Below the pieces are notes generated by a model. It worked only from the letters and a program-made list of their open reading frames with translations, was not told where the DNA came from and searched no databases. 64,000 nt of DNA, taken from positions 248,001-312,000 of the forward strand of contig JAIBBN010000001.1 of assembly GCA_019694655.1 (NCBI GenBank), in the 5' to 3' direction. This document shows, piece by piece, positions 141 through 40,030 of this stretch. Source of the DNA: Leptospirales bacterium (lineage in GTDB: Bacteria > Spirochaetota > Leptospiria > Leptospirales > Leptonemataceae). Numbering within the stretch: position 1 is the first letter of the stretch; every line of letters begins with the position of its first letter. The position numbers and the translations under genes were made by a program.

Positions 141-1412
141 TCAGCGCATTTCCGGCTGGCCGGTGCTTTCACGCACAATCGACCAGAGGTAGCCATCGCT
201 GGCCACGCGCTTGCGCTGGCCATGGATGGCCTCCAAGGGCACATACGTGAAGTACGAGTTCCAGTAGCCGGCAAGAAAGCCGCTGCGGCCGCTCATGGCG
301 CCATGAACCGCGTTTTGAGCCAGCATGATGCAGTAAACAGCGTCTTCGGCGCCAGCCGGCATGCTGCGTATACTGTAGCTTGGATCGATGTATTTGAGCG
401 CAATCGGGACGTGCGCGCTGCGAAAGTGTTCGGCGATTTCCTCGCACAATAGTTTTCCAATATCGCCGTAGCGCTTGTTGCCGGAAGCATCGGCGCCCTG
501 ATCGCTGAAGTGTTCCTGCCCGGCGCCCTCGGCGACGACTACCAGGGCATGGCCCTTGCGTTGCATGCGCGCTTCCAGAGCTTCCAGCAAACCGCCGGCG
601 CCGTGCAGTCGAAAGGGCGCTTCGGGAATCAGACAGAAATTCACTTCCGTCGATGCAATGGCGGCATAGCTGGCAATGAAACCCGAATCGCGACCCATTA
701 CCTTGACTACCACGATTCCATTGGGAGCGCCCTTTGCTTCGGCATGGGCGCCGCCCAGCACCTGTGCGGCCAATGTGACTGCCGTAGAAAATCCAAAGGT
801 GCGACTGACAAAGGCGATGTCATTGTCGATGGTCTTGGGTACGGCGGCGACGGCAATCGACGAGCCGCGACGCCGCAGTTCTTCATCGAGCAGGTGAGCG
901 CCGCGCAGCGTTCCATCGCCGCCGACCGTAAAAAGAATATTGATGCCGTTTTTCTCCAGAGTATCCGCCATGATACTCACATCCTGATGGCCGCGCGAGG
1001 ATCCCAGAATGGTGCCGCCTTGATTGTGGATGTTTTCCACATCGTGCAGCGTCAGCTCGCCTGGCGGATGCTTGCTGTCCGGAACCAGACCGGCGTAGCC
1101 GTAGCGGATGCCAAGAACCGACGGCAACCCGTATTGCAGGCGCAGCATGCGCACCATGCTTTGAATTACGTTGTTCAGTCCGGGGCACAAGCCGCCGCAG
1201 GTCACGATAGCGGCGCGCGTTCTGGCCGGATCGAAGTAAAGCTTGCGGCGCGGCCCGGCGTTTTCGAAGTACAGGGGACCTGGCTTGCGATCCGGACCGA
1301 GGGCGACTTCCAGCATGACGCCTTCCGCTTCGTCGATGAATTTTTCGATTTCCAGCGGAGAATCATAGCGGCATTCGCCAAGTCTTCGGACAGCCAGTTC
1401 GCTTTGCTCCAT
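141..1412 (-). CDS. pfkA: 6-phosphofructokinase, ATP-type by motif
   Basis: Phosphorylates fructose 6-phosphate to fructose 1,6-bisphosphate in glycolysis. The 423-residue protein has a family N-terminal extension, then TCGGLCPGLN near residue 71, GGDGT at 164-168 and PKTIDND at 192-198. The Gly in GGDGT is the residue that favours ATP over pyrophosphate in the PFK family (PPi enzymes have Asp there); the Lys in PKTIDND is common in plant, trypanosome and spirochaete-type ATP-PFKs. Assignment to ATP is therefore an inference from one residue. The upstream 184 bp are shared with the divergent RND pump gene. Confidence 0.92.
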   Translation of the reverse strand: MEQSELAVRRLGECRYDSPLEIEKFIDEAEGVMLEVALGPDRKPGPLYFENAGPRRKLYFDPARTRAAIVTCGGLCPGLNNVIQSMVRMLRLQYGLPSVLGIRYGYAGLVPDSKHPPGELTLHDVENIHNQGGTILGSSRGHQDVSIMADTLEKNGINILFTVGGDGTLRGAHLLDEELRRRGSSIAVAAVPKTIDNDIAFVSRTFGFSTAVTLAAQVLGGAHAEAKGAPNGIVVVKVMGRDSGFIASYAAIASTEVNFCLIPEAPFRLHGAGGLLEALEARMQRKGHALVVVAEGAGQEHFSDQGADASGNKRYGDIGKLLCEEIAEHFRSAHVPIALKYIDPSYSIRSMPAGAEDAVYCIMLAQNAVHGAMSGRSGFLAGYWNSYFTYVPLEAIHGQRKRVASDGYLWSIVRESTGQPEMR

Positions 1413-12630: not shown

Positions 12631-13644
12631 ATGCGTCGATTAGCGGTGTTTCAGGCGGGAGTTTTACTGACACTGGCAATTGCGGCCGGCAGTCTGCAGG
12701 CTGCGCCGCAACGAAGCAATGAGGAGCTGCGCATTCATTTTGGATTTGGCGGCAGCCAGCACAGCCCGGATCTGGAAGAGAAGGCCTACAATGATCGGCT
12801 CTATGGTTCGCTTCTGGCTGGCGGCGTTGGCTTCAATACGGATTGGCAGGAGACCTACGGCGGCGGAGTCGACTTCTTGCTGGAGTATCTGCGCGGTCCG
12901 TGGCGCTTTTCATTTTTCAATGAAGGCGCCGGATCCAGACCAAAGTACCTTGGCTTTAGCGCTGTGCAAAGCAGCAGCCTGAGCTTCACGCAGTTGGAGT
13001 CGGTAGAGGTCGATTCGCTGGGTCGCCTGAACACGCGGGCCGAAGCAGGCTACGACCTGCTGCGCGGGTCAGAAAGCAATCAACTCTTCCTGGTATTCGG
13101 GATAGCCGCCATGGCTCAGCGCGCTGAGTACAATCGGCTGACGGTCAATACGGCCAGCGCGGGCGGCCTCAGTGCATCGGCGATTGGCCTCGGTCTTTCC
13201 GACTATACTCAGGAATCTGCAGTCGGGCCGGCGCTTGGCCTTGATTACCGCTATCAGGCCACAGAAACTCTGGAACTGCAGGCCGCCTTGCGTCTGCTGG
13301 CGATGGGCGGCGACTGGGAGATGGAGCGCATATCGCTGTTCAGCAATGGCGCCGTGGATTTGCGCACCGAAAGCGGGGACCTATCAGCAGCCGGCTTCAA
13401 CTTGCTCCTTGGACTGCATTGGGCTTTTGCCGAGAACTGGCTGCTGGACTATACGATCTCAGTTACGTCGCTGCAGATTGGCGACGAAAATGTTACTCCG
13501 ATTGCATTGAACAGCTCTACGAGTTTCGACGCTTCGCGCTACTTGCTGGACTACGCTCTGACCTACCCGGGAAGCAGCCACAATGATACGATTTCTGTCG
13601 TTTCGCTTGGAGTTAGCTATCGACTTTCGCTGAGCGAGGAATAA
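12631..13644 (+). CDS. Predicted outer-membrane beta-barrel protein
   Basis: Start taken at the ATG at 12631 (MRRLAVFQAGVLLTLAIAA), which gives a clean signal peptide cleaved near LQA-AP at about residue 24 and lies about 8 bp after GGCAGGTGAG. The mature 310 residues alternate polar and hydrophobic positions, with many Gly/Tyr/Phe-bounded strands (GLDYRYQATETLELQAALRL), and end in SLGVSYRLSLSEE, close to a C-terminal barrel strand. No enzymatic motif is visible. The function (porin, transporter or structural OMP) cannot be decided. It starts 7 bp after the ParB-like stop. Confidence 0.7.
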   Translation: MRRLAVFQAGVLLTLAIAAGSLQAAPQRSNEELRIHFGFGGSQHSPDLEEKAYNDRLYGSLLAGGVGFNTDWQETYGGGVDFLLEYLRGPWRFSFFNEGAGSRPKYLGFSAVQSSSLSFTQLESVEVDSLGRLNTRAEAGYDLLRGSESNQLFLVFGIAAMAQRAEYNRLTVNTASAGGLSASAIGLGLSDYTQESAVGPALGLDYRYQATETLELQAALRLLAMGGDWEMERISLFSNGAVDLRTESGDLSAAGFNLLLGLHWAFAENWLLDYTISVTSLQIGDENVTPIALNSSTSFDASRYLLDYALTYPGSSHNDTISVVSLGVSYRLSLSEE

Positions 13645-25217: not shown

Positions 25218-25703
25218 ATGCATCCCAATGAAGAACTGATTCAAAAATTCTATAGCGCCTTTCAAAAACTGGACGGGGCCACTATGGCCGATTGCTATAC
25301 GGATGATGCCACCTTTGGCGATCCAGCCTTTCCCGATTTGAAGGGTTGGCGGATTGGCGCGATGTGGAAGATGCTCGCGGAGCGGGCGCAGAACTTCTCG
25401 CTGACTTTCAGCGATGTACACGCCGACGATGCAAGCGGCGGTGCAAAGTGGATTGCCAGCTACGATTTTTCTAAGACCGGACGGCGAATCGAGAACCACA
25501 TCACAGCCTCCTTTGAATTTAAGAACGGCAAGATCCAGAAGCATCGCGACAGTTTCAACTTCTGGCGCTGGGCGCGCATGGCCCTTGGCCCAACCGGACT
25601 GTTCCTGGGCTGGCTGCCTTCCGTAAAAGCAAAGGTTCAGAAGGAAGCGGGAACCGGTCTGGAAATGTATATCAAACGCAAGCGCCTCGGACCGCCGGCC
25701 TGA
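25218..25703 (+). CDS. NTF2-like (SnoaL-type) protein
   Basis: The 161-residue protein has a cone-shaped NTF2/SnoaL fold signature: MHPNEELIQKFYSAFQKLDG, CYTDDATFGDPAF, and a C-terminal strand pair with ITASFEFKNGKIQKHRD and FWRWARMALG. Proteins of this type are often annotated as ketosteroid isomerase-like or limonene epoxide hydrolase-like, but no catalytic set can be named. It is the third gene of the hotdog operon, with AGGAGCGAGAAAG before the ATG. Its stop lies 1 bp from the convergent lipoprotein stop. Confidence 0.85.
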   Translation: MHPNEELIQKFYSAFQKLDGATMADCYTDDATFGDPAFPDLKGWRIGAMWKMLAERAQNFSLTFSDVHADDASGGAKWIASYDFSKTGRRIENHITASFEFKNGKIQKHRDSFNFWRWARMALGPTGLFLGWLPSVKAKVQKEAGTGLEMYIKRKRLGPPA

Positions 25704-25704
25704 T

Positions 25705-26580
25705 TCAGCGCGTCGCAACGCTGGCGGCGATGGCCCCGTCGATGTCGGGGCCATTGAAGGCGCCCGGGTCGCGCAAGAAGGGCGCGGCAGTCGCGGGATT
25801 GTTCAGCGACGATGCGGCGCGAATGCGCAAATAGACAAATCCGCTTGCCTTCAAATTTGTAACCAGCGCTGGCGAACAGCCGTTGGCAAAGGAAGCGGAA
25901 TCGTCTACCAGGTTAGCCAGATCGAAGCGGTCGCCGCCGCCAACGCCATTGAACAGGTTCGCCGAGGTCATCGGATTTTGATCCTGGTTGTAGTACACTG
26001 GATTGATGCCGGCAAAACGCGACCACTTTGTCGGGTCCTGCGAATAGCTGGTCTCCGGGGCGTTTGTATAGTCCGGGTTGAAACCGCAATAGCTGATATT
26101 GTCTTCGCTAACCTCGATGATCGCCGCTTCCATGAAGCGCTGGCTGCTGTTGCCGCTTTGAAAAAAGGCATTCTCATAGACCACAAAGTCGACGCCGCCG
26201 CCGTTGAGCACGCGCCGGCCGCTCCACTCCAGGACCATGGACGCTGTCAGTCCGCTTTCGTTTAAACTGAAAACATCGGTTGATCCGCTGGCATCGCCGG
26301 CCCCGCGCACGCCATTGACGGCGCAGCGAACGTCATAAAAAACGCCGCCAGTGTTGCCGGGTGCGCTGGCGGCGACGTCGGCCACGAAGGCGCCTGCCGG
26401 CGGCGCCGCTGTTTGCTGGCAACTTGCGCCACTGGATGGCGCTACGGCTGCCAGCAGGAGCGCCGCGGCCGCGCTATCATCGCCGCCAGGCTGGGCGCAG
26501 GTCGAAAGCAATGCGGCACAGAAGGCCGCAGCGGCCGCCGAGTAGCGCAGCGGCCTTGTTTGCGTTTTAGCGGCGATCAT
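25705..26580 (-). CDS. Lipoprotein in a cobalamin-riboswitch operon, LIC_13355-like
   Basis: The 291-residue exported protein has signal peptide and lipobox LLSTC with Cys28, then a Gly/Ala-rich spacer. The folded region shows VDFVVYENAFF, AAIIEVSEDNISY, KWSRFAGINP, GGDRFDLANL, VYLRIRAAS and DGAIA near the end. The set VFEN ... VEVSxD ... AG ... GDxFDL ... YVRI is shared by a group of bacterial cell-surface proteins and resembles the Leptospira LIC_13355 lipoproteins; I recall this from memory and it needs a search. It overlaps the preceding lipoprotein gene by 14 bp, so both depend on the riboswitch at 27.2-27.4 kb. A role in B12 capture is an inference. Confidence 0.75.
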   Translation of the reverse strand: MIAAKTQTRPLRYSAAAAAFCAALLSTCAQPGGDDSAAAALLLAAVAPSSGASCQQTAAPPAGAFVADVAASAPGNTGGVFYDVRCAVNGVRGAGDASGSTDVFSLNESGLTASMVLEWSGRRVLNGGGVDFVVYENAFFQSGNSSQRFMEAAIIEVSEDNISYCGFNPDYTNAPETSYSQDPTKWSRFAGINPVYYNQDQNPMTSANLFNGVGGGDRFDLANLVDDSASFANGCSPALVTNLKASGFVYLRIRAASSLNNPATAAPFLRDPGAFNGPDIDGAIAASVATR

Positions 26581-27082
26581 AGCGCGTCCATGAAAAGCCC
26601 GCACAACCGCTGGAAAGGTTCGAGGCGTTGGCGCTGGAGGCGCTGGCCGCTTTGGCGGCAGCCAGACTGCTCTGGCTGAAGGAATACTCGCACCAGTAGA
26701 AACTGCTGCCATCCGGCTGCGTCCAGGCGACGGCGCCAAATTGACCGACAGTACAGCCCCCGCCAGTCTGTGCTGTACACTCGTAGTAGAAACGGTTCAA
26801 GCTGTTATCGAATTCTCTTAGCGCATAGGTGAAGGAGTAGCCCGTTCCCGTGCCGGCGGCCGTCCAGATGCTATTCACCGGACTGACCGTCAGGTCCGTA
26901 TTGAATCCGTTGTCGTGCCAGCGCCCGGCGATCTCTGGCGTTGTCAGTATTAGCCCGGCCAGCAGCAGCGCTGCGTTTTGGCCCTGCTCGTCGGAGTCGT
27001 CCTCCGATCCGGCGCCCAGTGGACAGTAACTCATGTTCAATATGAGCGCCATCGCGCCCGCGATTTGAATCTTTCTTTTCAT
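26567..27082 (-). CDS. Lipoprotein, first gene behind the cobalamin riboswitch
   Basis: The 171-residue protein starts MKRKIQIAGAMALILNMSYC with a lipoprotein signal and lipidation Cys20. The mature part has an acidic spacer (SEDDSDEQ), a hydrophobic patch, and then a beta-rich domain with four Cys (YEC, GGGC, FYWC, SGC) and many Trp/Tyr. A strong ribosome-binding site (AGGAGAAGG on the minus strand, 27086-27094) precedes the ATG. No family was recognised. The long leader upstream holds the cobalamin riboswitch, so expression should fall when B12 is plentiful. Confidence 0.75.
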   Translation of the reverse strand: MKRKIQIAGAMALILNMSYCPLGAGSEDDSDEQGQNAALLLAGLILTTPEIAGRWHDNGFNTDLTVSPVNSIWTAAGTGTGYSFTYALREFDNSLNRFYYECTAQTGGGCTVGQFGAVAWTQPDGSSFYWCEYSFSQSSLAAAKAASASSANASNLSSGCAGFSWTRYDRR

Positions 27083-27229
27083 TAGCCTTCTCCTGGATGT
27101 TGAGAAAGCCGGAGGCCGCGCAATGCGAAGCAATGGATACTCAGGTTATTCCTGGCGCGCATAGCAGAGCCCCTGGACTCTCTTTCGTCTCCGGGGCCCC
27201 CTCGCGCGCCTGCGGCGTGTGAGAATGCG

Positions 27230-27427
27230 ATGGACTCTATCCTCGAAGTCCGTTCGCGGGGAAGATCTGGCTTACAGGGCAGGCTTTGGGACTGCCATGA
27301 TTACAGTTGCGGGACAGCGCGGGAATCTCACCCGAAGCGACGAATCAATCGGCGCTCCCCGTCGCAAAGGACGGCAACTTCCTCCCTGAAGACTATTCTG
27401 CCAGCGCTGCGGGCAGCTCCGCTGGCG
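27230..27427 (-). promoter_or_regulatory. Cobalamin (AdoCbl) riboswitch
   Basis: Read on the minus strand, 27333 to 27301 contains GGTGAGATTCCCGC followed by GCTGTCCCGCAACTGTAA, the hallmark core of the cobalamin riboswitch (consensus GGTGxxAATCC...CCCGCxACTGT). Further downstream, CTGTAAGCCAGATCTTCCCC (27277-27258) matches the B12-box region (AGYCAGGATAC type). The upstream part holds paired GC-rich arms as expected for P2-P3. The element ends about 150 nt before the lipoprotein ATG, which leaves room for an expression platform. It fills the 345 bp between the DUF1289 stop (27428) and the lipoprotein start (27082). Exact 5' and 3' limits are approximate. Confidence 0.88.
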
Positions 27428-27625
27428 TCAAGAGTTATCCGTTTCCACCTGGCGCAGACGTTGGGGAAGTTCGCCCATGATACGCTTGCGCTCGTCTGTC
27501 GTCAGCTTGGACCACGTCGCAATCTCGTCGAGGGTGCGCGCACAGTCGACACAGCGACGCCCAGCGAGATCAAGTCGGCAGAGTCTTCGACAGGGAGAAA
27601 GATTTTCAGAAACTGCGTCGGGCAT
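27428..27625 (-). CDS. DUF1289 small Cys-rich protein
   Basis: The 65-residue protein shows the DUF1289 pattern: CRRLCRLDLAGRRCVDCART gives C-x3-C-x8-C-x2-C, followed by LDEIATWSKLTTDERKRIM. These are small, probably metal-binding proteins of unknown function, found in many proteobacteria and other Gram-negatives. The ATG at 27625 lies 14 bp after the MBOAT stop, so it is probably the second gene of that transcript. An in-frame upstream extension overlaps MBOAT and is not needed. Confidence 0.82.
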   Translation of the reverse strand: MPDAVSENLSPCRRLCRLDLAGRRCVDCARTLDEIATWSKLTTDERKRIMGELPQRLRQVETDNS

Positions 27626-39406: not shown

Positions 39407-40030
39407 CTAGCTCGTTGCCGGCGGTAGAGGAGGCGTCTCTTTTTCATCGCCTTGCCGCGACCTGGCGCGTGAGCGCCATTGCACATCTTCAATTCCCTCA
39501 AGGTGGTTAGCAAATCTTGCCGCTGTAAACAAATAATCGGACAGGCGATTGATGAATCGCAGGTTTGTGTCGCTGACCACTTTGCGCCGCTGTTCATCCT
39601 GATTGCCCTCGGCGATCAGGCGGGTCATAGAACGTTCCAGTCGTCGACAGAAGGTGCGCGCCAGATGCAGCGCTGCTGCTGCAGCTCCGCCGCCGGGCAG
39701 TACAAAATGGCGCATCGGCGGCAGCGCGGCGCTCATTCTGTCGATCGACTGCTCCAGCGCCAGAATATCGTCCGGGAATACAGCGCCATCTTCCGTCGCC
39801 CGAAATCCGGCCAGCTCGGAACCCAGTTCAAAGAGCAGGCGTTGCAGTTCTTTGAGACCCAGCGCAAGCTCCTCTGCCGATGGGGGCAGAGCCGCGCCGG
39901 CCATGCCCAGCGCGGAATTGAGTTCATCAACCTCGCCGTAGAGGTCGACGCGACGACTGTGCTTCCAGACGCGCTCGCCGCTGGCCAGTTGTGTACGGCC
40001 GTCATCGCCTTTGCGCGTGTAAATCTTCAT
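39407..40030 (-). CDS. ATP:cob(I)alamin adenosyltransferase, PduO type
   Basis: Makes adenosylcobalamin from reduced cobalamin and ATP. The 207-residue protein has the N-terminal ATP-binding motif MKIYTRKGDDGRTQLASGERV, YGEVDELNSALG, and the second motif FVLPGGGAAAAALHLARTFCRRLER. The C-terminal segment NQDEQRRKVVSDTNLRFINRLSDYLF is complete. It shows that the cell uses AdoCbl, relevant to the cobalamin riboswitch at 27.3 kb. It lies 23 bp after tmk. Confidence 0.94.
   Translation of the reverse strand: MKIYTRKGDDGRTQLASGERVWKHSRRVDLYGEVDELNSALGMAGAALPPSAEELALGLKELQRLLFELGSELAGFRATEDGAVFPDDILALEQSIDRMSAALPPMRHFVLPGGGAAAAALHLARTFCRRLERSMTRLIAEGNQDEQRRKVVSDTNLRFINRLSDYLFTAARFANHLEGIEDVQWRSRARSRQGDEKETPPLPPATS

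Follow-up and report, generated by a model that had tools for sequence, protein, structure and literature searches.

A compact cobalamin riboswitch precedes two overlapping genes for an ORF2 lipoprotein and its probable lipoprotein partner, ORF1, in a Leptospirales bacterium, and the two genes are likely to form a B12-repressed operon whose products would bind cobalamin at the outer membrane or on vesicles and feed it to a BtuB-type receptor. The genes lie in a 64,000-nt stretch of DNA, here called the window (assembly GCA_019694655.1, contig JAIBBN010000001.1, positions 248,001-312,000 of the forward strand), and their relatives recur behind cobalamin riboswitches across the class Leptospirae, often together with TonB-dependent receptors and β-propeller lipoproteins.

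The locus and its riboswitch

Along the minus strand the order is a DUF1289 gene, a leader, ORF1 (27082-26567, 171 aa) and ORF2 (26583-25705, 292 aa), with a 17-nt overlap between the last two. Beyond ORF2 no gene runs in the same direction; its neighbour there is convergent and SnoaL-like (25218-25703). The initial annotation had described this arrangement, with the DUF1289 gene upstream, an overlapping lipoprotein pair with nothing else behind it and a PduO-type adenosyltransferase elsewhere in the window (located at 39509-40024, minus strand), and all of these features stand. Promoter and terminator scans of the locus returned background levels only. Neither protein has a Pfam match, and the NCBIfam matches of both are to Leptospira-derived families, LIC13354 for ORF1 and LIC_13355 for ORF2.

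The riboswitch aptamer occupies 27259-27386 on the minus strand, as placed by RF00174, a leave-out covariance model (R1) and RNA folding. RF00174 (clan CL00101) is the sole Rfam match in the interval 27050-27500 (27266-27335, minus strand, 23.4 bits, E 5e-4), and its score lies below the gathering cut-off of 31.5 bits, leaving zero matches in the window at Rfam gathering thresholds; the initial annotation had named a sub-threshold RF00174 score as grounds for rejecting its proposal, and by that criterion the proposal formally fails. Other evidence shows the element to be real, however: no site in the whole 3.9 Mb genome matches RF00174 better, and a covariance model trained on 11 riboswitches from other Leptospirae, with the window excluded, scores it at 42.2 bits (E 6e-10), such that the conserved core, P1 and the junction are all recovered by a model built from independent relatives. 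Elements at the same position in related genomes also reach the Rfam cut-offs. In the predicted fold, P1 is closed by GGGAGGA/UCUUCCC (27386-27380 paired with 27265-27259) and encloses a GGGTG...TTCCC hairpin, the core CCCGCAACTGTAA (27313-27301, minus strand) and the adjacent AGCCAGA. Between the GGAAG of P1 and GGGTG lies an insert of ~44 nt that forms two hairpins and that most relatives lack; the low Rfam score is probably due to the element being a compact variant that carries this insert behind the 5' arm of P1. When the specific core pattern was searched across the whole genome, it was found only at the window site and at a btuB-like site, with 1 match in a reversed control.

A candidate expression platform is located at 27084-27110 (minus strand), where a 9-bp hairpin, GGCUUUCUC/GAGAAGGCU, masks most of an AGGAG Shine-Dalgarno sequence (27094-27090) just 5' of the ORF1 start codon. 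This hairpin is present in the minimum free energy fold with a pair probability of ~0.95, and its z-score of -0.45 means that its stability does not exceed that of shuffled sequences. The folding energy of the leader is likewise no better than that of shuffles, so the stability of both was left out as evidence, and a regulatory role for the hairpin is a tentative suggestion. B12-dependent repression is the usual mode of action of cobalamin riboswitches.

Recurrence and operon partners in Leptospirae

A search with NF033170, the LIC_13355 family model, across 296 genomes of the phylum found matches in 41, of which 37 belong to the same class as the window's genome. In a covariance-model scan with wider flanks, 31 of 33 Leptospirae loci of LIC_13355 had a same-strand riboswitch upstream, and 11 of the scanned riboswitches had also served to train the model. 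With three further riboswitch-bearing loci added (L026, L034 and the window) and two set aside because their contigs end inside the gene (G196 and G115), a riboswitch is found upstream at 34 of the 35 assessable loci in the class, genome G029 being the only real absence. Rfam independently assigns RF00174, RF01482 or RF01689 at most of the Leptospirae loci. The expectation that homologues would recur behind cobalamin riboswitches was thus borne out, often with a BtuB-like TonB receptor nearby.

Besides this receptor, the products of recurrent downstream genes are a β-propeller lipoprotein and proteins with DUF4430 and DUF6580 domains, the latter a membrane protein; CobT, CobS and a CobC-like phosphatase join them in some Leptospirae genomes. 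In Turneriella-type genomes, the riboswitch is followed directly by LIC_13355, without LIC13354, and then by the receptor and propeller genes; one locus of this group (L068, G156:C126) carries a 376-aa ORF that fuses LIC13354-like and LIC_13355 domains, with a separate LIC13354 gene upstream.

Several other observations were made at these loci. The DUF4430 lipoprotein and the DUF6580 membrane protein occur regularly in these operons (L045, L057, L060 and others), suggesting B12 roles for both in Leptospirae; DUF4430 also occurs in transcobalamin-type proteins. In two genomes (L042 in G172 and L065 in G141), two closely spaced, divergent cobalamin riboswitches face a LIC13354 gene on one side and a TonB receptor and propeller on the other. 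A TPP riboswitch (RF00059, 68.6 bits, 660-767, minus strand) adjoins the LIC_13355 locus L027, and a contig titled as a Klebsiella pneumoniae MAG (L137), whose species label is probably wrong, contains a LIC13354-LIC13355 pair behind a 98-bit cobalamin riboswitch.

Relatives beyond Leptospirae

Across GTDB genomes, proteins related to LIC_13355 turned up in Myxococcota, Desulfobacterota-type bacteria, CSSED10-310, KSB1, Sumerlaeota, Planctomycetota and Thermoplasmatota. Among 60 non-Leptospirae loci, a receptor was nearby at 24, a propeller at 16 and an upstream riboswitch core at 23, compared with a core frequency of 0.75% in antisense control windows; at least one B12 mark was present at 35 of the 60, and the remaining 25 had none of the tested marks. 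When 16 loci chosen for carrying the core were submitted to Rfam, all 16 scored above the gathering threshold (50 to 118 bits). KSB1 proteins join a LIC_13355-like domain to a propeller with a BtuG match at E 3e-8, which is the arrangement of BtuGH. Two archaeal MAG contigs assigned to Thermoplasmatota (L150 and L160) place LIC_13355-like domains beside DUF4430-like proteins, and L160 also has a propeller; transfer or mis-binning is possible in these cases.

ORF2 and its likeness to BtuH

By its sequence, ORF2 is a LIC_13355-family lipoprotein, scoring 263.4 bits against NF033170 over residues 25-289 (curated cut-off 120) and having a readable lipobox-like LLSTC. Its AlphaFold2 model is mainly β, a β-sandwich with a mean pLDDT of 84.7. 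In a Foldseek comparison of this model with 350,542 PDB chains, BtuG1, which is a BtuGH fusion, ranked first (E 2e-3, probability 0.94) and BtuH2 third (E 0.025), and the superposition of ORF2 on BtuH is partial (TM 0.37, rmsd 14 Å). A direct ORF2 profile searched against PDB returned irrelevant weak matches only and did not reach BtuH, so an expanded profile was needed. The profile of ORF2 relatives (A1) aligned with that of distant relatives (A3) at 99.9% in hhalign, and A3, when compared with 177,635 PDB sequences, had its best match in residues 430-499 of BtuG1 (E 7.6e-4), with BtuH2 next (E 0.3); a broader profile (A5) ranked BtuH2 at the top in PDB at an E of 0.12.

The alignments also place residues of known function. 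ORF2 contains the motif D-F-V-V-Y-E-N-A-F, and the Glu-Asn-x-Phe signature of the family aligns with Asn399 and Phe401 of BtuH2, which are described as B12 contacts (PMC8941943); the chain positions are 299 and 301 for these residues and 233 for Gln333, given a numbering offset of 100 that was deduced from the construct. Asn110 of the mature ORF2 protein is invariant in the LIC_13355 family and Phe112 shows at least 90% conservation, and of the BtuH2 contacts it is Asn399 and Phe401 that could be placed. Sequence profiles and structural models together suggest that ORF2 is very distantly homologous to the BtuH domain and carries a putative BtuH-like B12-binding domain.

BtuH (BtuH1, BtuH2 and the C-terminal domain of BtuG1) is, like ORF2, an exported lipoprotein encoded in B12 loci under riboswitch control, alongside BtuB and BtuG, and propeller fusions exist in both families. 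BtuH1 and BtuH2 differ from ORF2 in having N-terminal PKD (Ig-like) domains, whereas in ORF2 there is just a short disordered linker, and BtuGH lacks PKD domains as well. The two families are too distant in sequence for direct detection, the ORF2 family is paired with a lipocalin-like LIC13354 protein, unlike BtuH of Bacteroides thetaiotaomicron, and it is distributed across Leptospirae, Myxococcota, KSB1 and others, whereas BtuH is found in gut Bacteroidetes. The proposal that the pair differs in sequence from the Bacteroides binders therefore holds at the level of direct profiles, which miss BtuH, and gives way at the level of remote homology.

Other known B12 binders were considered for ORF2. 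A BtuG propeller is ruled out by the β-sandwich model. The DUF4465 or BtuJ jelly-roll binders resemble ORF2 in being riboswitch-regulated, exported β-sandwich lipoproteins, and their family includes Spirochaetota members (PMC13398666, PMC12751083); ORF2 has no match to it in Pfam up to E 1, and BtuJ structures are absent among its top Foldseek hits.

ORF1, a relative of LIC13354

ORF1 scores 40.5 bits (E 3e-10) against NF047669, below the curated cut-off of 130, so it is termed a divergent relative of the LIC13354 exoprotein family and not a formal member, an assignment that synteny supports. It is a probable lipoprotein, and its AF2 model is a lipocalin-like barrel (pLDDT 84.5) whose nearest folds in Foldseek are Tp0751, at the top, followed by nitrophorins. 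No B12-binder homologue of ORF1 was detectable.

Other B12 genes of the genome

Outside the window, a second cobalamin riboswitch with its genes spans 633649-637079 of contig C1. The riboswitch lies directly upstream of a BtuB-like receptor gene; the leave-out model gives it 64.9 bits, compared with only 13.5 bits by RF00174 alone. The receptor and propeller genes occupy 634031-637079, the propeller starting 11 bases after the receptor, and their products are 38% (E 6e-123) and 41% (E 1e-81) identical to respective family members. BtuG is a surface lipoprotein that works with BtuB, and a propeller lipoprotein is encoded both here and in many related operons. The Leptospirae propeller on its own has no sequence match to BtuG, so the label 'BtuG-like' rests on its context and on the KSB1 fusion. 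The initial annotation had likened the window pair to BtuG-type lipoproteins; this analogy is displaced, since neither ORF1 nor ORF2 is a propeller, ORF2 is closer to BtuH, and the BtuG-like protein is encoded by the separate gene behind the second riboswitch. The wider idea of an exported pair for B12 capture is well supported by the riboswitch recurrence, the receptor and propeller neighbours and the remote BtuH homology.

Four B12-binding enzymes were assigned in this genome by reading their sequences, one MetH-like and three mutase-type. One of the four (C3:231323-231601) binds B12, is fused to a GTPase-like domain and reads as IcmF-like. A DUF6580 gene is present, a DUF4430 protein was sought in this genome and not found, and CobS has no match in the assembly, which is ~96% complete. 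The presence of B12 enzymes without a CobS match makes a need for imported cobalamin likely, subject to the gaps in the assembly.

A model for cobalamin capture and its alternatives

When cobalamin is scarce, the riboswitch would leave the operon on, as predicted for an OFF switch, and the two lipoproteins would be made, exported and anchored, presumably at the cell surface in this organism. ORF2, with its diverged BtuH-type domain, would catch B12 there, and the lipocalin-like barrel of ORF1 would act as its partner, either as a second binder or as a docking subunit. The TonB receptor and the propeller encoded behind the second riboswitch, BtuB-like and BtuG-like respectively, would then take over the captured B12, and imported B12 would supply MetH and the mutase-type enzymes. 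A bolder version is more tentative, and we consider it a good deal less probable than the capture operon itself: that Leptospirae and several other phyla share an undescribed two-lipoprotein capture module in which the BtuH-like protein acts together with the LIC13354 protein, the latter a new cobalamin-binding fold, and that the two, perhaps secreted or carried on vesicles, deliver B12 to a complex of the BtuB-BtuG type.

The sub-threshold RF00174 score and the ordinary folding energy would suit a decayed or chance riboswitch-like match in front of constitutive lipoproteins of unrelated function, an explanation made highly improbable by the leave-out E value, the presence of the element at nearly every assessable Leptospirae locus and a genome-wide core pattern confined to this site and the btuB-like one against the single reversed-control match. 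A more serious alternative, though still an unlikely one, is that the pair acts in B12 metabolism without binding cobalamin, either by assembling or anchoring the BtuB complex or by handling cobalt, cobinamide or another corrinoid precursor. The association with cobTSC in some genomes and in Leptospira fits precursor salvage, and ORF1 has no detectable B12-binder homologue, but ORF2 shows remote BtuH homology with two conserved B12-contact residues, the propeller fusion is as in BtuGH, and the missing CobS match makes cobinamide salvage unlikely in the window's genome.

Published work on the Leptospira orthologues bears on a further alternative, in which the proteins are host-tissue adhesins or virulence lipoproteins and the riboswitch reads B12 as a mere niche signal. 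Recombinant LIC_13355 is surface-exposed and binds laminin, plasminogen and endothelial cells, in a study that does not mention B12 (PMC11891782), both genes rise ~3.7-fold in host-implanted L. interrogans (PMC3953431), and Tp0751, the closest fold to ORF1, is a Treponema pallidum lipoprotein. The laminin and plasminogen binding was obtained with refolded insoluble protein, however, and the family is found in all 20 Leptospira species of one survey, saprophytes included (PMC4758666). It also occurs in free-living Myxococcota, Thermodesulfobacteriota, KSB1 and even Thermoplasmatota, where TonB receptors, propellers and cobalamin riboswitches often accompany it. An adhesin function as the primary role is therefore very unlikely in our assessment, and the published adhesin role looks secondary: the distant kinship with BtuH, together with the riboswitch, makes the LIC_13355 family more likely to be part of the B12 uptake machinery than a host-adhesion factor, the one capacity in which it has been examined in Leptospira.

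The Leptospira pair resembles that of the window in its gene order, 13354-13355, which was taken from papers, and ORF2 belongs to the same family by curated score; the Leptospira proteins differ in having been published as an adhesin or exoprotein. The initial annotation saw no recognised B12 function in the window genes, which is true of their database names, but LA_4202 (LIC13354) and LA_4203 (LIC_13355) had already been listed in the cobII cluster with cobTSC, with no function proposed (PMC4758666). In L. interrogans, cobalamin riboswitches are reported at btuB and the cobI/III operon and not at this pair (PMC3493377, PMC3953431); the pair of pathogenic Leptospira adjoins cobTSC with no reported riboswitch, whereas the window pair has one.

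Implications

Riboswitch-controlled surface lipoproteins for B12 capture are already known from Bacteroides (PMC6143338, PMC8941943, PMC12751083, PMC13398666); the partner protein, the LIC13354 relative, is possibly new. A literature search with most subscription papers outside its reach found none that ties LIC_13355 or LIC13354 to BtuH or to B12 capture. The analysis provides a testable function for a lipoprotein family that is universal in surveyed Leptospira species, featured in a vaccine-antigen screen and has recently been given an adhesin label. If the proposal is correct, LIC_13355 would serve to capture a nutrient, with its binding of host proteins a secondary trait, and B12 capture of the BtuH type would extend past the gut Bacteroidetes to spirochaetes, myxobacteria and other phyla. 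In bacteria whose B12 acquisition was previously known mainly from btuB, the riboswitches, capture lipoproteins, receptor, propeller, DUF6580 and DUF4430 proteins together would make up a nearly complete predicted route of uptake.
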